Assembly (NCBI GenBank): GCA_016165875.1
Contig: JABBOT010000005.1
Location: 24,639,368 to 24,703,367, forward strand
DNA: 64,000 nucleotides
Origin: Acanthopleura granulata
Taxonomy: Eukaryota; Mollusca; Polyplacophora; Chitonida; Chitonidae
Direction: 5' to 3'
Below the pieces are notes generated by a model. The model worked only from the letters and a program-made list of their open reading frames with translations, was not told the DNA's origin and ran no database searches. Positions 607 to 40,151 of this stretch are shown here, one piece after another. The first letter of the stretch is position 1, and each line of letters opens with the position of its first letter. A program made the position numbers and the translations under genes.

Positions 607-774
607 ACTGACGTGGTTCCTGGTGTTAATCGTGTGCCTGGCCTTGGTTAGTTATCAGATCACAGACAGAGTTATGAAATTTCTCTCCGATGCCACACAC
701 ACTAATATGGATTTACATTATGTAGAGAGCATGGAGTACCCGACGATAACAATATGCAACTTAAACAAATACAG
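607..774 (+). CDS. DEG/ENaC exon 1 of window: TM1 and post-TM1 motif
   Basis: Encodes visible residues 1-57. The acceptor is TTTCAG ending at 606 and the donor is AG|GTAAGT at 775. The first base completes an arginine codon, so an upstream exon outside the window supplies the N-terminus. Residues 3-19 are hydrophobic (WFLVLIVCLALV) and form most of TM1. Residues 45-54 read YPTITICNLN, the hallmark of the first extracellular segment of DEG/ENaC channels. The intron after it is phase 2 and almost 10 kb long. Confidence 0.92.
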
Positions 775-10730: not shown

Positions 10731-10907
10731 AATAACAGAGGCCAATAAAACAGACCTGTATAGTTTTTTACACGATGTTGTGCACGGAAAGAGAGACCGA
10801 AGAGGGTTGAGTTTTGCTCACGCTCTCAGTAAAACACCTCCCTTAAACAAATCATACAGTGACTTTATGAGGCAAATGTCTCACAGAAAGGAATGCTTTG
10901 TACATAG
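10731..10907 (+). CDS. DEG/ENaC exon 2: start of extracellular finger
   Basis: Visible residues 57-116. The acceptor TTTGCAG ends at 10730; the donor AG|GTAAGC begins at 10908. The segment follows directly on TICNLNKYR and contains TDLYSFLHDVV, matching the helix after the first beta strand in the family, then a basic stretch (GKRDRRG) and the sequon NKS. It ends with the first finger cysteine (KECFVH). Phase 2 on both sides. Confidence 0.9.
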
Positions 10908-11315: not shown

Positions 11316-11425
11316 TTGCACGTGGGCTGGCAGACCTTGTGGAATTCAAAATTTTACCGAAATTTTTACAGACTATGGATTGTGTTACAAATTTTCACCA
11401 AGTTCAAGAAAAATAAAATCAGGCG
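11316..11425 (+). CDS. DEG/ENaC exon 3: finger disulfide block
   Basis: Visible residues 116-153. Contains CTWAGRPC and, after FTEIFTDYG, LCYKFS. This is the family pattern C-x6-C, then F-x-x-x-F-T-x-x-G-x-C-Y-x-F. The acceptor is TTTTCAG and the donor G|GTAAGT. The frame continues from exon 2 (phase 2) and passes phase 1 to exon 4. Confidence 0.92.
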
Positions 11426-15832: not shown

Positions 15833-16014
15833 GTACCGCCAGTGGGTTATCCGTTGTGTTAAACGTAGAACAATACGAATACTTGCTGGGTCCCCGCTCC
15901 GCTGTTGGGGTGAAGTTTGCTATCCACGACCCGTTGGATCATCCCCAGCTCTCTACAGCTGGCTACTTTGCGCCAGTTGGCTCTCATTCATCGGTATCCA
16001 TTACCAAAGTTCAG
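15833..16014 (+). CDS. DEG/ENaC exon 4: palm/beta-ball region
   Basis: Visible residues 153-213. Contains SGLSVVLNVEQYEYL and VGVKFAIHD, which match the conserved GL-x-V-x-L-x-x-x-Q-x-E-Y block and the G-V-K-x-x-I-H-D strand of the superfamily, followed by SSVSITKVQ. The acceptor TCGCAG ends at 15832 and the donor CAG|GTAAGG starts at 16015. Phase 1 in, phase 0 out. Confidence 0.94.
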
Positions 16015-16511: not shown

Positions 16512-16674
16512 CACTTGGATAAATCCACTGACGGTGACAGATGGGGACTGTCCCAGTTCCACAACCCGCACCCTGGGAATCGCTACGCTAAAGGGTGCCT
16601 TCACCGCTGTGAAGCCCGACACTGGGGACAACGCTGTAAATGTGGCATGCCCTGGATGATCCGCTATGGAGGAG
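16512..16674 (+). CDS. DEG/ENaC exon 5: thumb cysteines
   Basis: Visible residues 214-268. Contains RYAKGCLHRC and QRCKCGMPW, the Y-x-x-x-C-x-x-x-C and C-x-C-x-x-P-W/Y patterns of the thumb domain. The acceptor ATTCCAG ends at 16511 and the donor GAG|GTATAC starts at 16675. An overlapping frame (16444-16659) is open but lacks family motifs; the chosen frame is the only one that joins exon 4 and exon 6. Confidence 0.92.
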
Positions 16675-17438: not shown

Positions 17439-17495
17439 GCAACCTGACAGAGTGTTCAGCTAGCGAGTACTTCCATTGTATTCAGCTTACTACAG
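17439..17495 (+). CDS. DEG/ENaC exon 6: micro-exon with thumb cysteines
   Basis: Only 57 bases (visible residues 268-287) and shorter than a usual ORF cut-off. It reads GNLTECSASEYFHCIQLTT with acceptor ATTGCAG and donor AG|GTATCA. The C-x8-C spacing supplies the cysteine pair expected between the thumb block and the CxCxxxC motif, and the phases (1 in, 1 out) are exactly those needed to join exons 5 and 7. Confidence 0.85.
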
Positions 17496-18954: not shown

Positions 18955-20099
18955 ATTTTCTGAACTGTTCGTGTTCCCCAGACTGTGAGCGTGTGGAGTA
19001 CGACGTGGGCATCTCTCATTCCGCCATGTCCTCATACGCGGCCGAGTCTGAAATCAGGACGTTGAGGGACAAGCGCAAGCTGCAGGAAGAATTCCAGAAT
19101 GCCAGAGATACTTACCACCGTATGGACAAAGACGTGATCAAACACGACAAAACCACACTCATCAAACTGGCGGGCAATTTTAATCGAAGCGTCAATAAAG
19201 TACGAATATTGTCCGACAATGCCTCAAAGTACAGGGAACTGTTGACCGAAGACATCAGCAGCATGAATTCCTCTCTTAGAGACCTGAACGATTCTGTCAT
19301 GTTTACAGCTCAACTCTTCAATCAGTTCAGTCATCTTTCCTTCTATCATTTTGACCGAAGTATCAAAGCTACAATAAAGGATATTTCTCAAAGCTATTCA
19401 TACGACGCCATCAGTGCATCGTCCTCTGTGGCCGAGGCAAACAGTACCCTTAACAACATCATCGAGAAATTGGAAACTTTGATCGTAACCAAGCATTACC
19501 CGACCCATAAGTCCTCTCCTCTCATTCCGGAAATTACTAAGGGTATCCAGATTTTTCGAGAGCAGATTGTGAGTGGTTATGGTCAGAAATATAAGGAATT
19601 TCGTGAGTCCCGTGACAAGTACAATAAAACCACAGAAAACATACTGAAGATTTCCGCTCATCTGAAAAGTATTCTCACACAGGAGTATAAGACACTGAAA
19701 AATGTCACCCGCGCAAGGCATACTGGTACAGAACGATACTCAGAAGCATTGGCGCAGTTTTACCGCACTATTCAATTGGTGGAAGGGGATGTCATGCAAG
19801 AAATGGACAGAGAATTGACTGAGCTTCAAGAAGCCTACACCCAAGATAGACTAAAGGTTCTGGCATTTGCCAGAACACTTGTGACTGTAGACGAACAGTT
19901 TCAGACCGAAGCCAGAACAATCGAAACTTCGTCGAAACAACTGTGGAACTCGCTGGAATCGCTCCAAATAGAACTGAATACTCTTCAAAGGGAATTCTCA
20001 AGAGTTAAAAGGGAGTACACCGAAGGGAAACTAAACAAGAGTAAATTAGCACAAAGGCTTGGATTGCCAATACTGGTGGATTCACGAAGAGCCGCTGAG
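18955..20099 (+). CDS. DEG/ENaC exon 7: CxCxxxC motif followed by long coiled-coil insert
   Basis: Giant exon (1145 bases, visible residues 287-668). It begins with FLNCSCSPDCERVEYD, the conserved block that closes the thumb. From about residue 315 it is a charged, heptad-rich, cysteine-free helical sequence. One run has hydrophobic residues at 616, 620, 623, 627, 630, 634, 637 and 641, an exact 4-3 heptad spacing. Prolines occur only at 469-478 (PTHKSSPLIP) and 658, which splits the region into two helical arms of roughly 155 and 180 residues. Eight N-glycosylation sequons lie between 363 and 647, fitting an extracellular location. The reading frame happens to stay open 133 bases upstream of the TTTCAG acceptor; the splice at 18955 is preferred because it restores the frame from exon 6. 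The donor is GAG|GTGAGT. Confidence 0.9.
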
Positions 20100-22502
20100 G
20101 TGAGTAAAGGTTGATCATTGAAATACGTAAGTTTATAAAATGCTGTAGAATATTTCCTCTGAAAAACAAAGAAAGGGACAAAGAGAGGAAATTATAGCAG
20201 AGACGTATAATATCGGTTTACCATAATCACTTTCATAAACTGTTCCCAATTATTGGCTTTCTGTATTGGACGACATTAAAACATTGGATTGCGCGCTTAG
20301 ATTAGAAACTTTCACCACAAGTCTATTTTTACATTTAACACATACCCATAATCATTTTGTGATAATGTTTTCCACAGTCTGTTCAAATGATTACAAAGTT
20401 TATCATAATGTTACATAAAATATAGAAAAAAATTGGGAGCAAGAAAGTCGTCTTATCACTTACACGCGAGTTCAAAAGTTGGGTGAAGATCTATGTTTTT
20501 GATGAGTATTTTTCAAAGTTCAGTTTTATAGGAATTCAGCTATTGTAATTTCAATAATGCCAAGACTTCAACTCAGCTTAGATCTGAACATGACATGGAA
20601 CTCTTCTTCCCATATACCAGCACCTACTAGACTTAGCAGCCAACGCAGCAGACAGTTCCCTTCAAAATTCTTTACGAATCTGCTGTGAAACTCCAGGTGA
20701 ATGGAACGGAATTTTATAAGTTTGCACGTGCATTTCGTTTATTTCCACAGATCAATTGAGTTATATCCAACTCCACTGCAAAGTTTTATGAGACTGTGAT
20801 GTTAATGTCTGGCTCAACCTAAATACACCGAAATCTAATCAAAATTTATACAAAAATTCAACTGACAACATGGCAAAGATTTCTTTGGAATCTATATTTG
20901 TAGAATACACAAATCTCAAATGCAGTGGGCAGCATTGGTTAATCCTATCAAAAGGATCGTCTGTTTTATTGTCAGATAAAGTTGACGTAGCTCATCAGAT
21001 GAATGTGGGAATAGTTCTCTTACAGTGTCAACATAATCATCCTTGTTACTCAGTATTGTTTTACCCACCGATATTATATTTATGTGTCTGCTCTCAAGGA
21101 GTGTGGACATTTTAAACTCAGTTTGTTGATTTAACTAGTAATATTATTAGGCGCTTTATTTACACTCATGACAGAGGTATTTCACATTGATAACTAACAC
21201 ATTTATTATCACACTGATGTATGACAAATGTTTAATAACGTCAGATTCGAAGCAGAACAATAATAAATAGGATATTGCGCAGGGACGATTTGAATTCCAT
21301 TCTTGTTGTTATGAAGGACGAAAAATATCTGGAAATAAAAGAATGCTTGTGCCGAACGGCATCGAAATACATGTAGCTTAACATTGTGGGAAGAACCAAA
21401 ATGTTGCAGAATACAACACAGTTTGCTGGTGCCGCCTTACGAGCCTTTCGCCTAGAGCTTGCCTCAAATTATTCTTACAATGGTTTTGTCATGGAACTTC
21501 TTTTTCTTTTACCGCGGAGGTTTTCAACACCAGTGGCCCACGTGGGCAGAGAAAGAGCAGCCAGGTTTGTGGGGTCACACTTGCAATGCTCTGGGGTTAA
21601 TCAGCACGTGTTGAAATGCTATTCTGTGGGACTTCAAGGCTGGGAGCAGCTGGTAATTGATGTCCCATCTGATTAAGTGTCAGCGAGTTGTGATTTACAG
21701 ACAAACGGCAGGTTCCGGCTTTCTTTGCCCCGTGCAAATTCCATATGACACAGACAGGCTCTCTGGTCACTCGAGAAAGACCTAGGAACACTTATCCCCG
21801 ACAAAAATGACCGATTTCTTCGACACATGCAAATATAATGGATCAGCCGAGTATTTATCTTACCTGAGAGTGAACCAGGTGTGATTGTATCCTTAACATT
21901 AAACTCGCCATATCTAGGCTGGCAAATCTATTCCTAAGATCGCGAGTTCTTCGATTTCCCTTCCGTTTGACGAAGTGGAAAGAATGTCGATTGACACAGG
22001 CTTTGTTCTTATTTGGTAAAACGACCGCGTCGTTGGATGGATACAGATGATATGCTTTTCGTCTCCTTCATGGCTCACTGAATGGATGCCTCATCTGTAC
22101 ATGAATATATTCCTAAACACACAAAGCTGTTAAAACCTACATTGCCCTCACCCCTGAGATTCAACAGAAATGACTTCGCCGCAGTTCTCAAATTACCTGT
22201 GATATCATTTACAATCCAAATGTAAAATCAGACATTTCTCCTACATGTCAATTGCCCAGCGATTTCCAAAACTACACCAAGGTGATGCCCAAAACAAAGC
22301 TTTTTAAATTAGCTCGCTACGCACAATTCGTCACCATTGACAATTACTGTGTTGCTACCGGATAAATGGTATTATTTGAATTTTTGATAAAGTTATTTGT
22401 TAAAGCTATTTCAACTACTGTAATGTCATCTCATTTGAGCAGATATGAATATTATAACCACTTTACTTCAGACTAAAGTCCATAGTTACATTGATTTATA
22501 TG

Positions 22503-22753
22503 GGGCCTCCTTGACTCAGTCGGTTAGCGCGCTAACGCAGCGCAATGACCGAAGCCTCCCACCAATGCGGTCGCTGTGAGCTCAAGCCCAGCTTATACTG
22601 GCTTCCTCTCCGGCTGCACGTGGGAAGGTCTGCCAGCAACCTGCGGATGGTCGTGGGTTTCCCCCGGCCTCTGTCCGGTTTCCTCCCACCATAATGCTGG
22701 CCGCCGTCGTATAAGTGAAATACGGCGTAAAACACCAATCAAATAAATAAATA
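22503..22753 (+). mobile_element. tRNA-derived SINE copy 2, full length
   Basis: The most complete copy. A tRNA-like head (GGGGCCTCCTTGACTCAGTC then GGTTAGCGCGCTAACGCAGC) carries an A-box-like segment. It is followed by the B-box-like GTGAGCTCAAGCCC, the conserved central CTTCCTCTCCGGCTGCACGT, then CCGCCGTCGTATAAGTGAAA and an (AAAT)n tail. It lacks the ATTCTTGAG block found in other copies. Confidence 0.9.
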
Positions 22754-22881
22754 CATTTATGAGTTAATGAGGTGGGGAGGTTACACTGTAGTTATGAAAT
22801 ATAATGTAATGTTATGTAATGTTGGTTGATGATTCGCTCTTTCGGAGGTTGTAGATCCAAACTTGAATTTGTACTTTATGA

Positions 22882-22910
22882 GATAAATAGATAGATAGAT
22901 AGATAGATAT
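22882..22910. repeat. (GATA)n microsatellite
   Basis: About six tandem ATAG units in intron 7. Confidence 0.95.
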
Positions 22911-22938
22911 CTGATGACGGAAGTCTTTTGGGGGTATA

Positions 22939-23376
22939 ACACACCAGATTTGGACGCATGAAGTCAGCGGTTCGGTCACTATATTCACGTATAAACACGT
23001 TATATTTGGAGAGATTATGTCAGCCTTAGACATATAAGGTAAGCGACCCCGTCTCTATGTTCACGCATAAAACCGTTCTGTTTAGCCTAAAAGAGAACAG
23101 ACCAGCTTTGGACGTGTAAAGTCAGTGGTCCCGTCACTACATTCACGTATAAACGCGGTGTATTTGCAGAGATTGGACCAGCTTTGGACGTATGTCAGTG
23201 GTCCCGTCACTATATTCGCGTATAAGCACGTTATATTTATGGAGATTAGGTCAGCTTTGGACGAATAGGCCAGCGGTCTTGTCACTGTATTCACGTATAA
23301 ACACGATATATGCAGTATGAAGGAGAACAGACCAGCTTTGGACGTATGAAGTCAGCGGCTCCGTCACGTAAAAATC
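22939..23376. repeat. Degenerate tandem array, about 70-80-bp unit
   Basis: About six units built from CCAGCTTTGGACGTATGAAG, GTCAGCGGTCCCGTCACTAT and ATTCACGTATAAACACG(T)TATATTT. Unit length varies through internal deletions. Short - strand open frames through the array are repeat translations. In intron 7. Confidence 0.85.
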
Positions 23377-25948
23377 GCCTCTCAGAGATAAGACCTGGCG
23401 CTGTAGAAGAAAGTGGACGCGTATTCTCTGATAATCACGATTTGGCATAAATCGCCCGGTAACAAATCGTGGAGGCAAACATACGGCAATCTCAGTCACT
23501 TTTAAACTCTTGCCGATATTGATACAGTGTAATGTGCATCCTCATTTGAAGGCGGGAACCTGCAGGTCGCGTCATTCCCTGTTTACACAAGGGGAGTTGT
23601 GTGAGACTGTCCGTGTCTTCGAGAGCTATGGAAACATTCTGTGTGATGTGGTTGGGGGTTTCGGCTTCCTGAAGACGCACTGTTCCCTCAGAGACGGCAC
23701 TGCCCCCGAATCTACGGATTTGATTGGCCAACATACCACAGCGCCTCCATGCTTCTCTCAACCCGTCCGAGACGCCATGCGCGCTATTATTTGCTTGACC
23801 ACTTATCAAATCTCTGTTTGCCACTGCGTAGGGAATCGATTGTCAGATTAGTTCGATTTGCTCTTTTCAACTCCCGCTACGCTCTCTCTGTATTAGGTTA
23901 TATTTTGGTTGCGGTCAAAAGCGTACGTTCAGATTAGCATGTCTTATTGCTTGATTTGTATTGAAAAAACACTCAGCCGGGGCTTAGCTAATTTAGTTAT
24001 AGTCGAAACGCTCGATCGGCAAAGCGGGGCGGATTCGGGCCTGCTTCCGTTCTTTGAGTAAAGTCAGAGGTGCCGTCTTCATTACGTCTCCGTAACGAGG
24101 AAAGGCATGTTGATTATTCAGCGAATAGAGTTTCGGAAAAAGCAAAGGCGTGGAGGAACAAAGACAAGCCATAGCACACTGGACATCAGTTATGGCATTA
24201 TGATGACCGTCATTCTCTGTAAATAGTTAAATTAGATGGATTAATGTTTTCGCCTCATTTCACGTGTCAATTAAAACCGACTTTGTTCTATAGATATATG
24301 AGAATTGACAGGGCGTATCGGTAAATGGAGCAGATTGTAGAATTGATGGAGAAACATGATGCTCAAAGCATTCAGCTCATACTGAACAATCTGTAGCGAA
24401 TGATTCGCTAACATTACTGAGGTATGTAAAATTGCTGACTGCTTTCTGGCTCAGGCAGTTAACTTCTATTCAGACTACGTAGAGATTACAATTTTCATTA
24501 CTGTTTAAGATTTGATTGTAATGCTGTATGTAGTGTTATCCAAATATCTTGATGAAGTGACGATTCTACATGAGACTCTGCCCACTGTTTTCATAATGAC
24601 TGAATAAATTTAGGTTTAAATTGCGGTATATATTGTTCTGAAAGAACATTTTTGTCCCAAAATATGAAATTGCAATATTTCCATGAAAGACATCAGAAAA
24701 TACACAAAAGCAAGTGAAGAGCAAAGTCTATTTGTATTCCCGATTTCAAGAAGAGAATATTAGTTAGATTTCTTTCTTCGTTTTCCCATCAAACGTTCCT
24801 TTGAAGGTTGACGTTGAAGTACGGAACAGCTTAAATTCAGGGACAGAAGCTGTTGTTAGAAAAGTTCTTAGTGGATTCATGTTTGTATTTCATCTTACAG
24901 ATTATATTATTTTCTTTGGTCTCAAAGCTGCCTGTTCCGTATGTCCAACTGGTTAATAATGTATAGGCAGTAACAAGCGGCATACCAGCATTACGGGGAA
25001 TAAACGGAGAAGAAAGTCTGGGTTATCAAGCTGAACATATGGGTTTTCTTAGCCATCGACCAGGGAGTTGACAGCTGCTGCTATCAACAATGCATGGCCG
25101 TCCATATCGAGGATAATTAATTGGAAAAAACGAATCACGCTCGGCTCTTTCGGCGGCAGTATGAGAAGCAAAAATCATGTATTCTCTCAATGTTCGTCTC
25201 CGTACGATTGTGCCAGCTCCGACTGCTATTGTGTCCACTATAATTACTCCAATGTATTTCAAGATAATCGTGTTCAGACCTGAAATTTTCTTCTGTGAAC
25301 GACTGCTTGAATCCCCAGGATTATTTAATGCCAATGCATTAATAATTCCTGCTCCATTTTCTTCCCGATATAAGCATTGTTAAAAGGGAATGAAACTATT
25401 AAGCTTATTTTCGAATAACATGGGTATTGTGGCCTAAGTATCCACATGTCTGTTTACACCAAACAATGATGACTTTCTTACCAATCGGTTATATTTGTAT
25501 TAACATGAATTTATACATAATGGAATATACCTGTTTAGTTTCATAGCATATATAGAAAAGCTTGTTGGGTGTAAAGTCTGTGACAGGGAACCAATTATCT
25601 ATGATGAAGTGATTATAAGTATTCACTAGTTCGTTTCGACGTCTCACATACATTGAGCTATGTAGATAATTAGGACCGAGATTTTCCAAATTACTTTAGA
25701 ATAATTCTCCTTTCACAAATTTTGTAATAAACAAAAAGTCTGATTTTCACGACATATATATATCCCCTGATGATTAATGAAAAAATTACCATTTTTTTTA
25801 AATTTCTTTGCTTTACATGAGTTTCTTCCATCTTAGGTATAAGTGAAACCTAAAATATTTTGGTAATGTTCAGTAATTAACATTGCTTGTGTACTTCTTA
25901 CGTATAGTTTCTTGTTCTAAAAAAGTTGTCTCATTTTTTTCTTAACAG

Positions 25949-26214
25949 GAACTTACCATGAAAGTCAAGCAGCTCATGGACGATATTGCTCGCGCCGGAA
26001 CTGCCATGTGGAATCTCATTGAGCCAATCAAATTTCGATTTAGCGATTTCCAGTTGTCACGAAAGATCCTGAAGTCGCTGGAGACGCCATCTCTAGCCCA
26101 GGACACGGACGAAGTGACGAATGATATCCGCAAGTCCCTCAATCACGTGGCCGAGTATGAAACAGAACTAGAAGATTATGTTGAAAGTACAAAGATTAAC
26201 GGAAAATTTTACTT
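25949..26214 (+). CDS. DEG/ENaC exon 8: C-terminal part of helical insert
   Basis: Visible residues 669-757. Cysteine-free and helix-like (ELTMKVKQLMDDIARAG, then RKSLNHVAEYETELEDYVES), ending in INGKFYL, which leads back into the conserved palm strand. Prolines at 694 and in ETPSL break it into at least two helices. The acceptor is CTTAACAG and the donor TT|GTAAGT. Phase 0 in, phase 2 out. Confidence 0.9.
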
Positions 26215-26753: not shown

Positions 26754-26845
26754 AAACAACTTCTTACAACTGGATATATACTTTGCCGAGCTGACGGAGA
26801 CTACGATAACACAGCAGACTTCATACGGATTATTTGACCTGGCCT
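26754..26845 (+). CDS. DEG/ENaC exon 9: pre-TM2 palm strand
   Basis: Visible residues 757-788. Reads NNFLQLDIYFAELTETTITQ, the conserved strand before TM2, then QTSYGLFDLA. The acceptor is TGTTACAG and the donor T|GTAAGT. The exon is only 92 bases and has no start codon, so it escapes simple ORF searches. Confidence 0.9.
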
Positions 26846-27129: not shown

Positions 27130-27278
27130 GTGACATTGGCGGATCTTTGGCCCTCTACCTGGGCATCAGCGTTATCGCTTTCTTCGAGGCTCTAGATTTT
27201 GCTGGTCAGTTAATTAACATCGTGTTCTTCAAAGGAAAGTTAAAGAGGTTCGAACAGCCGGGAGAATCGACGTGCTGA
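27130..27278 (+). CDS. DEG/ENaC exon 10: TM2, selectivity filter and C-terminus
   Basis: Visible residues 788-836 and stop. Starts C-DIGGS; TM2 contains LGISVIAFFEAL, where GIS (799-801) occupies the G-x-S selectivity filter. The cytoplasmic tail is short and basic (FFKGKLKRFEQPGESTC) with no PPxY motif, so Nedd4-type regulation as in vertebrate ENaC is not indicated. Cysteine 788 directly precedes DIGG, the place of the small degenerin-site residue. Confidence 0.94.
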
Positions 27279-29690
27279 CTAGAGGAAGTGACGTCAATTA
27301 TGAACGTTTACGTGGACATGGCTGAACAAGATCTCGCGTTAACCTCTATGGGAACGTGAAACCCACGACTGTGCTGTTGTCTATGATAACAGAGTTGATG
27401 GTGTGTTTGCTGACATATATTTCAAAATATAAGATTTCAGTTGGACACTGGGAGCAGGCCCATAATGAATTTCATGGTATGAGACTGTATTGTATGACTC
27501 CAACATTAAAATATTGGCAGGGGTGGGGAAGTGATCAAGACGGCCTTAATTGTGACTTTGTTAGAGCTTCTTGGCTTCTTGTGGCCATGGGGTTTCATAT
27601 TACAACTAGACTTCTGTTGGCAGCGGGGTTAACTGTGACATTTGTAAAACGGTTGAACTTGCGATGGCAGTGGAGACGTTGTGTGACATCGACTTTTGGA
27701 TTTCGGCTAACCATGGCGATTTCATGACCGTGACCATTGAGGCCGTGTAGGTTTTGCTTTCCTTCCTTTATTTCCCCCATCCCCTATTTTGCATGAAACG
27801 TGCTGTAACTGTTTCAGACAGTCTTTGTGGACCAGAATGACCTTCAGGAGAGAATGGTTGTTCAGTTGTATTAAAATTGTGGAATGAATGGAGCTTCGTG
27901 CCTTCTTGGCCGGGCATCTGGTATCCCTGAGCAGAGTGGAACGCTCAGCTGGGTTTCTGATTGATGTTGACATAAACAGGCATGGCAATGTAGCACATCA
28001 AACACCCGACACCTCAGCTGCTTTTCCAGAGCGCGTGGCCTCAAGGCAACCAACAACGTCACCGGCAAAACCAGGATTAATTGAAATCTCGTGGAAAATC
28101 TCGTGCTTGATCACCCCGTGCTGTGCTACAGGGTAGGGACGCGTGAAGCGAACTGACGGCTGATTTGAGTGAGGCGAGAAATTTCCTATTTAACTGCCTC
28201 GGGGAAGAATTGCACACCAACATGTCGTGATATTCAGACACAGAAGCCAGAATCTACAATATTCATCTATCAATGTCGAAATAGAGCCGTGCGATTTCTC
28301 TTTTGCCGATTTATCAGCGGATTAGTACATATGTAAATTCGTACAGATTATATCTATTTGGCTGATGCATCAGCGGATTCGCACAGGTGTAAATTCGTAC
28401 AGACTGTACTTCATGCCTCGAGGACCTACATCACAGAGGCATGTATTAATGGGCTGAGCATTATCATGGCAATTCCTCCATGGAATACGCGAACGAAGAT
28501 ATACATGGTGTAAATAAAAAATACTGCTGTTTATAGAGGATGTTTGACGTGGAAACACATCTCTGACTCAATGGACCTATATATGAGCATAACCTTTTCA
28601 GCCTGTCGACAATATTACGTTGGACTAACAGCAGGCTATATTGTACCGTTCAGCGCAGAAATCAAAGTCTGACAACTATTGCTCGATTTTGTAAAAGATC
28701 CATTCCATTTCGTATATTTACTGGTGGTTTATCCCAAAGTGTCATTTTTGTTATCAGTGCAGTAATGTAGAATTAAACACATCTGGTTTATGGTTTAAAT
28801 GAAGTCTGCCAAATATATGTAATCTTACGCGACAAAAGGGGTGATTTATCCAAAGACATGTTCTTTATATGTCATAGATTTGTTTTGATACTTTAGGCTG
28901 TACATATTGTAATATATGCCGGCGGAAGCATAAAATATTCCAACTTTGAACAAGAATCATCGGTCCCAAATCTATATTCTTTCGTCAGTATATGTAAGTA
29001 ACTAAGTCTGCATAACCTGGTTAGTGTTCATGTGTTTAATGGGTTTGGTATGTTCGCGCACTGAACCAAAAGACAATCGAACAGGCCGAAAAGTAATTTT
29101 GCAATCAATCAGTACATTTAGCATTTTCAGATTTTATTCAGTTAATTTTGCATGTATGTCTCGTGTGAAATAATTCTGTTCACAGCTAATAAATATCTAC
29201 CGATCTTCAGACACCAATTAATTCAAAGGCGACTGGTGTTTAAAAGAGTAGTGCGATAACAGTTATATCATCTGAAAATTACCTTTTTATAATGAAGAGG
29301 AAAGCGCAAATACATGATTGTACATAGAGCCGGCATGCTTCATTTTATCGCTGTAATATATATATTTCCTAAGTATGTAAATATTATCCAAGATTAATTT
29401 TTAAAATTGTATAAATATTTTTTTCCGACGGCGACAGACATTAGAAAAGTTCACACGAGCTTGATGGGTTCGTCAGAATAAACACAGCGTGTGGATGTTT
29501 ACCATTTCTGATAAAATGGTGCTTAAAGTGAATAAAAAGATCCACTTTTACCTGTAGCCTTTCCTGTCTTTTATTTCTTTAGAGGTTTTATCAGTGTAAA
29601 CATTTATAAATTTATATAACCAGCACTTCTTCTCTCGCCATATTCAGTTACACGTTTAAACAATGCAAATGACTATATATCATAGAGAGC
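27279..29690 (+). other. 3' UTR and downstream flank of the channel gene
   Basis: No coding feature recognised. The transcript end is not fixed: an AATAAA hexamer is at 28513-28518 in TAAATAAAAAATAC, and another lies near 29532. A direct duplication of about 57 bp (ATCAGCGGATT...AAATTCGTACAGA) is at 28311-28411. Confidence 0.4.
28513..28518 (+). promoter_or_regulatory. Candidate polyadenylation signal
   Basis: AATAAA about 1.2 kb after the channel stop codon. Earlier canonical hexamers were not noticed between the stop and here. Whether it is used cannot be told from sequence. Confidence 0.3.
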
Positions 29691-29696
29691 AAAATC

Positions 29697-30028
29697 AGAG
29701 TACGACAGTGTGATAGCTGGTATAAAATCAGAGTCCGACAGTGTGATAGCTGGTATAAAATCAGAGTCCGACAGTGTGATAGCTGGTATAAAATCAGAGT
29801 ACGACAGTGTGATAGCTGGTATAAAATCAGAGTGCGACAGTGTGATAGCTGGTATAAAATCAGAGTACGACAGTGTGATAGCTGGTATAAAATCAGAGTA
29901 CGACAGTGTGATAGCTGGTATAAAATCAGAGTACGACAGTGTGATAGCTGGTATAAAATCAGAGTACGACAGTGTGATAGCTGGTATAAAATCAGAGTAC
30001 GACAGTGTGATAGCTGGTATAAAATGGT
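29697..30028. repeat. 33-bp minisatellite, ten near-identical units
   Basis: Unit: TACGACAGTGTGATAGCTGG + TATAAAATCAGAG. Variation is limited to one base (TAC/TCC/TGC-GACAG). Because 33 is divisible by three, the array is open in more than one frame and yields an 11-residue peptide repeat; I regard this as chance. The unit matches the GACGACAGTGTGATAGTTGG segment of the dispersed TATAAAAG repeat, and the sequence after the array (GGTGACACGTAACCGGTGAA) continues as that repeat does. Confidence 0.95.
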
Positions 30029-36790: not shown

Positions 36791-37560
36791 TTATACTGCG
36801 GTGCGTCTGTCGTCGGCGTATGGTTTTGCCTTCTGCTTACTGAGGGCGTCGCGTTCAGCAATTTTGCTGTCACTGTCAGAGGCAGTCGGCATCCGTGGGA
36901 GAACAATGTTCATCTGATGTCCAGTCAATGCTTCGAATGTCGAAACATCGGTGGAGGAATAGTGATGTAGCACGGTAATGTCTAAGAAATTTGAATAATT
37001 CCTGTTTCCAATTCCGATGTTCCACTGATAAAGCTCTAATGATTTTGTTTAGGGTTGCCATAAAACGTCCTACTTCACCGTTGGCTTCGGACCAGAGAGG
37101 GGTAACGCGGTGGTGTTTGAAACCAAGGTTTGCGGCAAAAACTTGAAGTCCAGGCTGTTGAAAGGCGGTCCGTGATCGGATTTAACTTTTTGTGGAGCGC
37201 CTTGTCGCGCGAATATAGCATCGAGTTTCGGAATTACCGCTCTGGATGACTTGGAGTTGACGATCTCGAGCTCTGGGAAGCGACTGTGTTCGTCGATTAC
37301 GACGAGTACGCGTTCGCCAGATGGGAAAGGTCCTGTGAGATCATCTGCTACTTCTTCCCATTGCCCATATAAAAGTTTTGTCATGCACAGTGGCTCACGC
37401 GTTATCGGACAGCTCATAGAACCTTGACAGGGTAGGCATGATCTGATGCATTGCTCGGTTAACCTGTCAAAACCTTGGAACCAGACTTTCTGTCTAAGTA
37501 GTTGCTTGGTCCTCACAGTCCCTTGTTGACCAGTGTGGGCCAGGTCTACAGCTTTCGCTC
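36791..37560 (-). pseudogene. Integrase of the gypsy-type element, broken
   Basis: Read on - from about 37560. The zinc-binding region has AHTGQQG, where a second histidine is usual and here is Gln, followed by C-x-x-x-C-L-P-C. The catalytic core shows the first Asp in DDLTGPF, the second in KSDHGPPF and the Glu in SEANGEV, the last in a shifted frame near 37080. The C-terminal part continues through FLRHYRAT and ALTGHQMN with a further frameshift near 36970. The DDE residues remain readable, but frameshifts prevent one intact product. Confidence 0.88.
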
Positions 37561-37819
37561 ACAGAGGCTGGGGGATCACGATGCGATTTCCGCGAATGAC
37601 GATTCCGTTGCACATCGTTAACTCGTTTTTTTTACAAGCACTTCGCGTCTGAATCTGTTCACCCACAACTGGAAATGGCTTTTAGCAATTTCTGGATCGG
37701 AGGCTCATTCTAAGTGATCTGTCTAACCTCACCGAGTGTCACAGCTTTCGGAACAGCGTTGGACACAACATAGTTGATGTAGACTTCAGCAACATTCTGT
37801 GTCGCCAGCGTTCCACACG

Positions 37820-38090
37820 AGCTGAGGTCCGTTTTTGGAAAGATCCCTAGCAAAGGTTTTTGGTCTGTCATATTGGTGAAGTCAGTATCAAACAGGTAAA
37901 AATGGAATTGCTCTTCTCAAACAGCGGCCAGCATTTTGCACTCGGTTCGAGAGTAGTGTTGCCCTGTGTCGGTTAGTCCGCGGCTACCGTAGCTAATCAC
38001 TTTGCCCATTTGACAAAGGATTGCCCCTAATCCTACAGGGCTGGCATCGACTAACAGTTCCGTGAACAGATTCGGATCAAACAAACTCAT
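37820..38090 (-). pseudogene. RNase H of the gypsy-type element, broken
   Basis: Not visible as an ORF of useful length; found by reading the - strand. VDASPVGLGAIL contains the first catalytic Asp region. SRGLTDTGQHYSRTECKMLA is the conserved segment with the catalytic Glu, after which a stop replaces the usual Trp. TDQKPLLGIF follows in another frame. Confidence 0.8.
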
Positions 38091-38271
38091 TACCTCGACT
38101 CTGGTGAGGGCACGGTTGAGTTCATCAGGTGCGTTCTGTTCGCTTGGATACTATGTCTAGTCGATGTCCTTGTGTGCCAGATGTCTCAGGGCTTAGCCAT
38201 AGAAGCTTACTTTGACACAAAACGCGATACACGTTAAGCCATATCCAGATGGGACTTTAGCTCACTGACGT

Positions 38272-38925
38272 TCATAGGAGCTGGCAGGTTTGTGATTGCG
38301 TCAATCTTACACAGGTCTGGTGAGATGCGTTTGGCCTCAAAAATGTTTCCGTAGAACTTGACTTGGTTCGTAGAGAATACACATTGTCAGCATTGAGTTT
38401 TACAATACTTTCGTGCAGTCTCCGGAGCACGGCTTGGAGACTTTTGTCGTGTTGGCATTGGTTTCTGACATGTACCTTGATATCGTCTGATAAGTTCATG
38501 GAGCCTGGGAGGTCGCGAATGAGATCCGCGATTTCGCTTTGGAAGATTTCCGAGGTTACGTTAACACCAAACATGAGACCCATGTACCGTCTTAGACCAA
38601 GACGGTATCCCGCTGTTAAATCTAGCTTAAGGAACACTGAGGCGGAGTTCAGATGAGCGATCAGGTCATCAGTTGTTGGCATGGGATGCTTTTGACGCTT
38701 GATCGCTTTATTGGTCTCCCTCATATCGCCACATACCCGATCGCCTCCAGATTTCATTGGAACGACGATCACGGGGCTGACCCATGGTGTTGGCCCTTGG
38801 ACTTTTCCGATTATGTCAGGAGATTCTAATCTCCGCAGCTCAGCCTCGACGTCTTTGCAGACGTGGAAAGATATGCAGCGCTGCGGCTGCTGTTTCGGAC
38901 GGACAGAATGGTCGTTGTGAAGGTA
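38272..38925 (-). pseudogene. Reverse transcriptase of the gypsy-type element, broken
   Basis: Upstream of the longest open part, ELRRLESPDIIG and GPTPWVSPVIVVP can be read without a start codon. The fingers/palm follow with CGDMRETNKAI, HPMPTTDDL and VFLKLDLTAGY, then MNLSDDI, which carries the catalytic Asp pair as SDD instead of the commoner Y-x-DD. The frame is disrupted after about 38275. Confidence 0.9.
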
Positions 38926-39189
38926 AACTTACTTTGCCTTGATTTTTCCGATACCCTCAAAGAAGTCAGGAAACTGTTCGGTTATCGATTGTATCCATGT
39001 CTTGGAGTTACATGACTGGTTCGTTGAGACAGTGCTGAAATTAGGTCGAATGTACAACACTTTAAGTTTCTCCGCTGTCTGATAGCTCAAAAGGTTACAG
39101 GTCTTACTACTGAGAACAAAGAATTTCTCTGACGTGGTGATGTTGTCATGGGTAATGTCAGCATGCGCAGTTCCAATAGCAGCAAGGGG

Positions 39190-39460
39190 GGATTTATGTC
39201 GTATGGAAATACGCTTTAGACTGGGGTTTGAGGTGACACGTTTAATGCTGTCATAGGTGTCCATGTCAATTATGTTCACAGATGAGCCAGAGTCAGTCAT
39301 AAACGGTATTGAGGGTCCATTCAGTGCCATTTGTGGTATGTGAAGCGTGTAACCTTCATTCGCTTGGACAATGATGGCAGCTGAGACAGTAAATATATTC
39401 GTCGTCACTGTCAGACTTTGGTCGCGATTCTTCACGCGGGCTATGTACGTCTTGTTCATT
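39190..39460 (-). pseudogene. Aspartic protease of the gypsy-type element
   Basis: MTDSGSSVNII carries the D-S/T-G active-site triad of a retropepsin near 39275-39300, preceded by VQANEGYTLHIPQMALNG and followed by a typical beta-rich segment (FFVLSSKTCNLLS). The frame itself is open from 39459 to 38929, but its connection to gag and RT is frameshifted. Confidence 0.8.
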
Positions 39461-39479
39461 CTGCTTGCTGAGTCGCGAT

Positions 39480-40151
39480 TGGCATACAGACGAAAAGCGG
39501 TTTAATTTTTCAAAATTGTTGCAGGTTTTTCCTTTCGCGGGACACGACTTTTGTGCCACAGGCTGTAACCACAATATCCTCATGTCCACTGCCCGTTCTG
39601 CATAATGGATTTACCTGCGGGTTGTACGCGGTCACGCGATTGCGATGTGAGTTTATTTTGTGTCCGGCCATTCTCCTCTTGCTTAGTTTGGCAGAAGTTA
39701 TATAGTTCGTTGGCAGTGTCATAATATTCGCTCTATCCAGTATCAGGCAGTGTGTCCAAGATTTCATCAACATCTGTGACAGCGTAATGAAGCAGTAAGG
39801 CACGCTTGCGTAGTGTGTTGTCCATGTCTAGGTCGATAAACAGGCGTTTAAAACGAGACAACCATTTTGCACAACGTGGCCCAACGTTGCTCTCTAAGTG
39901 GAGATCAAAACAGGGGAAAACGGGCAAATTTACAACCATTCTCTTGAAAGCGCAAAAGGCGAGGGCATTGTTATGGAGTGTGGCACTTTGTAAGGAGTGT
40001 AGGTCGAGCTGCGGTAAGCTATAGAATTCACATGCAAGGACAGTTCAGAAAGTCTGATTAGGTGCCTAGCTTTCGTGGCAGGTAACGACATTTCATACAT
40101 GGAGAAACAGAATCTAGCACTTACAGTACTGTGTCCGATCGGCAGTGTCAT
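39480..40151 (-). pseudogene. Gag remnant of the gypsy-type element
   Basis: Read on - in at least three frames. NVGPRCAKWLSRFKRLF near 39850-39895 resembles the N-terminal capsid segment common in this group. CPAKGKTCNNFEKLNRF near 39500-39560 looks like an eroded CCHC zinc knuckle in which some Cys/His positions are replaced. Confidence 0.75.

Follow-up and report, generated by a model that had tools for sequence, protein, structure and literature searches.

The genome of the chiton Acanthopleura granulata encodes a DEG/ENaC channel subunit whose ectodomain is enlarged by a giant insert. The gene lies in a stretch of 64,000 nucleotides, below called the window (GenBank assembly GCA_016165875.1, contig JABBOT010000005.1, here C5:24639368-24703367), and in its product about 434 additional residues separate the knuckle helix from the final strand ahead of the second transmembrane segment (TM2). 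The insert is real and no artefact of the gene model. Profile comparisons point to homologous inserts in molluscs, annelids and a nemertean, and structure models predict a long helical arm. Based on these sequences, we regard the proteins concerned as a DEG/ENaC subfamily, so far undescribed, whose arm is putatively rigid and glycosylated. That this arm extends from the knuckle of the subunit and is likely a built-in, glycosylated tether or lever for force gating is our tentative proposal, which we consider possible rather than probable.

The insert in the channel ectodomain

The DEG/ENaC identity of the window protein, assigned in the original prediction from the DNA alone, is borne out by several features. 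The protein matches Pfam ASC (PF00858) with an expectation value (E) of 2.8e-70 (238.1 bits, cut-off 23.6), contains 14 ectodomain cysteines from C50 to C296, a CxCxxxC motif (CSCSPDC, residues 290-296) and the GxS selectivity filter in TM2 in the form GIS (798-800). Its best single-sequence match in the PDB is ASIC5/BASIC (9mkz, E 2e-40), and two stretches, residues 2-317 and 752-810, correspond in the alignment to the two ends of ASIC5 that bear the transmembrane segments. Between these aligned blocks ASIC5 has 9 residues, so that the excess in the window protein is about 425 residues. In the ASIC2 chain (6l6p; 6ave and 6l6p were the solved ASIC1 and ASIC2 structures used for comparison) position 393 leads to 397 where a 66-row profile runs from 374 to 835, i.e., 3 residues against 460 positions. 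The window protein, with its 434 residues, thus lacks the compact knuckle-to-strand segment of solved ASICs. Both alignments place the insert just after the knuckle helix, as had been predicted, and the predicted distance of about 460 residues between the tyrosine behind CxCxxxC and the aspartate before TM2 is likewise found, the numbering being one lower here (Y301, D763). The peptide-gated FaNaC channels of molluscs and annelids (7yvb, 8on7) score below the ASICs, and their best-scoring stretches stop before the insert.

The window protein has no cysteine between C296 and C787. The absence of cysteine from the insert, part of the original description, holds for this copy but is no family trait, since the long-insert relatives have a median of 2 and only 4 of 72 have none. 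A count of eight N-glycosylation sequons was confirmed, compared to 3.5 expected from shuffled sequences (eight or more in 24 of 2000). Over 74 rows with 400-560 insert residues, the window included, there are 9.47 sequons per insert versus 4.32 expected, and 72 rows lie above expectation, these rows being related and not independent. The 74 inserts are also poor in proline (1.3%) and glycine (2.3%) compared to the channel part (4.2% and 5.8%, all medians). The window insert contains no hydrophobic stretch resembling a membrane segment, it gives no Pfam match above the family cut-off, and none of the solved structures matches it convincingly.

Homologous inserts in three phyla

A protein search with the insert region alone gave no match, and a search with the channel part gave a single one, protein P0001 of the oyster Saccostrea echinata (919 residues, 34% identity), which has a segment of similar size at the same place with conserved ends. 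The profile of these two sequences retrieved 83 proteins, P0001 included. Judged by their names, they stem from bivalves, gastropods, cephalopods, a chiton, annelids (Owenia, Capitella, Paralvinella, Ridgeia), a nemertean (Tubulanus) and unnamed sources, as well as a nematode protein without the arm. At least 430 residues are present at the insert site in 72 of the 83, and 64 of these have 470-500; the median is 483 with an interquartile range of 482-488, and P0081 (609 residues) is counted as long. Among the 11 with fewer than 430 residues, P0080, P0082 and P0083 are armless (57, 56 and 39), and the other eight have 150-429 residues and are either truncated gene models or real. Between wider anchors, 458 residues were counted in the window protein, 488 in P0001, 486 in Tubulanus, 530-534 in five annelid rows and 487 in the sixth annelid row (P0076). 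The insert is no peculiarity of the window protein, as most relatives found carry it too. Its length is nearly constant in molluscs while its sequence is free, a combination that fits the expectation for a structural spacer.

Relative to the oyster insert, identity decreases from 69% in Ostrea to 34% in Solemya and 30% in a chiton as well as in an octopus, and amounts to 17% in two annelids. In every row the value for the insert lies below that for the channel part (51% for the chiton, 54% for Solemya, 42-44% for the annelids). Since pairwise identity in the middle of the insert is too low to judge homology, the comparison was made between profiles of the insert residues only (HHalign, single comparisons), with reversed sequences as control. 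Against 50 mollusc rows, a set that excludes two unnamed rows (P0005, P0011) and four conserved A. granulata copies, six annelid rows gave an E of 5e-48 over 460 columns, the nemertean insert 4e-27 and eleven unnamed rows 6e-31, while the reversed controls gave 0.06-0.22. On this sequence evidence, the arm is homologous between the three phyla. Nine fast-evolving copies from the chiton's own genome, eight of them represented by exon 7 alone, were compared with 74 relatives (70 database rows of 430-560 residues plus the four conserved copies) and gave a probability of 95.7 and an E of 8.6e-9 over 346 collinear columns, with 1.7 and 0.03 for reversed sequences. The arm of the window copy is thus very probably homologous to those of its relatives.

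Since a homologous segment stands at the same place in relatives of three phyla, channel and insert belong to one gene rather than two, in agreement with the original prediction. We define here an arm-bearing lophotrochozoan subfamily by a homologous insert of 430-530 residues that follows the knuckle helix and precedes the pre-TM2 strand, and the window protein falls within it. In a tree of channel parts, which contained no ASIC rows, 31 rows cluster at 96/92 apart from four armless rows; one of the 31, P0078, has only 179 residues at the insert site.

Additional domains were seen in two annelid relatives. P0081 (Capitella teleta) contains an LDLa domain at 120-155, early in the ectodomain, besides its long post-knuckle insert. 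In P0057 (Owenia fusiformis) residues 1006-1351 comprise a CBM39 and a glycosyl hydrolase 16 domain fused to an arm-bearing channel, possibly two genes merged in the annotation.

Predicted fold of the insert

An AlphaFold2 model of oyster P0001 shows transmembrane helices at 63-93 and 876-916 and an all-helical insert, with block values of the predicted local distance difference test (pLDDT) of 82-98 over residues 381-850. Structure prediction had been suggested as a check on long helices, and the AlphaFold2 model of window positions 18957-20060 contains two, at fragment residues 58-159 and 251-355 (102 and 105 residues), as well as shorter ones. The insert is thus predicted to form a long helical arm in which shorter helices lie alongside two long ones, each of about 100 residues (about 15 nm, with 1.5 Å per residue).

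In both long helices of the window protein a hydrophobic period of 3.6 residues was matched by none of 1000 shuffles, and a period of 3.5 residues by 12 and 44 of 1000, respectively. A control part of the ectodomain has no 3.6-residue periodicity (699 of 1000 shuffles reach its value). Of the heptads claimed earlier, the periodicity is indeed present, but 3.6 residues fit better than 3.5. Similarly, the proposed helical stalk is supported insofar as the insert is helical, but the models suggest a folded multi-helix arm and not a knuckle helix prolonged as a plain coiled coil.

Gene structure

The gene consists of ten exons on the forward strand (window 607-27279) with nine GT-AG introns, all in phase. 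The spliced frame is open from the first transmembrane segment (TM1; 607) through the TGA stop (27279) and yields 835 residues. In relatives, the HG motif before TM1 has the consensus TTxHGLRYI; the window copy's own N-terminal exon or exons, upstream of the window, were not found in 20 kb of upstream DNA. TM1 and the start of the ectodomain (residues 1-55) are encoded by 607..774, as indicated by splice sites, Pfam ASC and relatives. The following ectodomain exons, which rest on splice sites, frame and alignment to relatives, are located at 10731..10907 (residues 56-114), 11316..11425 (115-151), 15833..16014 (152-212, with an NVEQYEY block), 16512..16674 (213-266, with four conserved cysteines) and 17439..17495 (a small exon, 267-285).

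The large exon 7 (18955..20099, residues 286-667) encodes CxCxxxC and the knuckle helix, followed by the initial four fifths of the insert. It is supported by its open frame, GT-AG sites, eight paralogous loci and the presence of a long insert in 72 of the 83 proteins. The insert portion of this exon (19047..20099, about residues 317-667) contains the eight sequons, no cysteine and the motif GYGQKYKEF (19575..19601), which is kept with changes in eight paralogues of the own genome. Exon 8 (25949..26214, residues 668-755) encodes the remainder of the insert; in the alignment it corresponds to the C-terminal portion of the oyster insert, and paralogous exons match it with 24-33% identity. The last strand before TM2 (NNFLQLDIYFAEL...) is encoded by exon 9 (26754..26845; splice sites and frame, ASIC5 alignment), and TM2, the GIS filter, a short C-terminal tail and the stop by exon 10 (27130..27279; splice sites and frame, Pfam ASC, ASIC5 alignment). 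The predicted junctions 17495/18955, 20099/25949 and 26214/26754 proved correct, each being GT-AG and in phase.

The codon of C787 is split between exons 9 and 10 (26845/27130-27131) and lies before DIGG at the start of TM2. This cysteine is also found in P0001 (C881) and in the family consensus, while the ASICs compared have glycine. We take the site to be the degenerin position that sets gating.

Downstream of the gene, a tandem array at 29691-30025 consists of 10.2 copies of a 33-base unit with 98% matches. Since the unit is a multiple of three, several frames stay open, and no gene is evident in the array. Retroelement pol remnants occupy 37070-39501 on the reverse strand, with integrase-like open frames (rve 3.2e-07, H2C2 3.3e-07) and a reverse-transcriptase-like open frame below the cut-off (1.6e-05).

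Copies in the chiton genome

With the window segment as query, eight further loci were found, all on C5. The insert exon comprises 361-392 residues in the seven whole C5 paralogues, and pairwise identity is 21-31% over all nine rows. The C5 copies have ARDxYHRxD-, LN-, SHxxF- and GYGQxYxEF-like motifs in common, and one copy (L030) has an extra intron. A Solemya query identified four further, conserved loci on contigs C83 and C54, in which the whole insert lies in one open frame of 522-551 codons and is followed by a donor-like site matching the place of the exon end at 26214 in the window. One locus of the genome shares 82% identity over the insert exon with a protein from the chiton Liolophura sinensis. 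The genome therefore contains at least 13 arm genes, nine of which, including that of the window, are fast-evolving and located on one scaffold. A single-exon relative without arm (L001) is present as well. The fast arm-bearing genes are found in both orientations in three regions of C5 (24.44-25.22, 14.31-14.43 and 18.09-18.23 Mb), a distribution that suggests local duplication followed by fast divergence.

A decaying or mis-modelled window copy, with a big exon that stems from something else or is no longer translated, would be in line with its long branch and with the lack of a close database relative (a single match, 34%). Ten in-frame exons with consensus splice sites, and a homologous arm at the same place in three phyla and at 12 more loci of the own genome, render this explanation highly improbable.

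The 13 paralogous loci in one genome could require subunit sorting, and long helices are able to self-associate. The three arms of a channel might pack against each other or against those of adjacent channels and fix the choice or clustering of subunits with little role in gating. In ASIC structures the knuckle sits away from the threefold axis, which argues against such packing, and we regard a role in assembly or shielding as quite unlikely.

Possible function of the arm

Among the roles considered, that of a mechanical tether or lever is the most likely one. A length that is kept despite drift, a helical and sequon-rich sequence and the root in the knuckle would all suit it. According to the models, the arm would rise from the knuckle as a folded multi-helix structure. 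It would carry sugars attached to its sequons and project away from the trimer, and its sugars or its tip may bind the extracellular matrix or a partner. An outside tug would then move the knuckle, the motion would be passed to the pore, and the channel would be pulled open. We advance with more hesitation the broader view of an unrecognised channel class of molluscs, annelids and nemerteans, in which each subunit would bear a rigid, sugar-coated helical lever of about 15 nm as a built-in gating tether. In the chiton this class would have expanded to at least 13 genes, of which nine share a scaffold.

Several observations weigh against this interpretation. The insert contains conserved spots, for example P573 in 94% of 64 rows and the RDAMEER region at 70-80%, which appear to be more than a mere spacer needs and would suit a binding site. 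They would agree with a receptor head, in which a helical bundle at the far end of the arm binds a partner protein or a diffusible ligand; the knuckle would be moved by this binding, and the pore would open or close. Such a ligand-binding head is the strongest rival to the tether or lever, although we judge it rather unlikely. Regarding the sugars, the sequon asparagines do not favour the polar helix face (mean cosine -0.06 versus -0.16 for other asparagines), opposite to expectation. The oyster model reaches a predicted template modelling score of 0.60 and hence does not give the direction of the arm, and the window fragment model has a pLDDT of 73, with residues 181-207 being poor.

Other points concern the window copy itself. 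Its insert is just 13-18% identical to the eleven relatives compared, against 28-36% for the channel part, and the comparison of the nine fast copies with mollusc rows alone gave a probability of only 84.4 (E 7e-6, 100 columns, reversed 3.1). Genome searches with the Solemya and Liolophura proteins found the C5 channel exons and did not list the insert exons, which shows how far the latter diverged. The tree of channel parts has several long branches, that of the window copy being 4.32, so that its own function may differ from that of its relatives.

Comparison with known channels

Such an arm appears to be undescribed in the open PubMed Central (PMC) literature, among the matches listed (titles and beginnings of abstracts, with subscription journals mostly outside), and the parts available to us of PMC10424705, PMC9822975, PMC10507113, PMC9949801, PMC6827283, PMC7850002 and PMC10148893 do not mention it. 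The earlier statement that no channel of this kind was described is upheld for this literature, but dozens of such proteins are already present in sequence databases, mostly labelled as uncharacterized, others as 'degenerin-like protein del-10' or 'acid-sensing ion channel 4-B-like'. According to the portion consulted, no putative ASICs were reported for A. granulata and Crassostrea gigas (eLife 2023, PMC9949801), so that 'ASIC-like' database names are loose. The name of Caenorhabditis elegans DEL-10 (Q10025) is borne by several records of arm family members at the National Center for Biotechnology Information. One tree groups DEL-10 itself with ASICs and BASIC in a subclade (PMC9822975, in part), and no arm is mentioned for it in the portion consulted of PMC10424705. 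For alpha-ENaC, N-glycosylated asparagines of palm and knuckle are reportedly needed for shear sensing, and matrix tethering has been proposed or discussed for DEG/ENaC channels (both from part of PMC10148893).

The long-standing question whether an extracellular tether gates DEG/ENaC channels becomes directly testable here, since the candidate tether belongs to the polypeptide chain of the subunit, where it can be made shorter or stiffer or be deleted. The subfamily also provides a starting point for dozens of 'uncharacterized' mollusc proteins. The DEG/ENaC ectodomain is regarded as compact and shaped like a hand. A subfamily in three phyla with a knuckle-inserted domain that is larger than the remaining ectodomain, and whose length was kept over deep divergence, would change the view of how these channels couple to the outside. 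Added extracellular modules are known from EGAS channels, which contain EGF-like repeats, and from MEC-4, which contains a regulatory domain. Like these channels, the window protein bears an extra extracellular module on a DEG/ENaC core; in EGAS and MEC-4 other modules are found at other places, while in the window protein the module is a helical insert that follows the knuckle helix.
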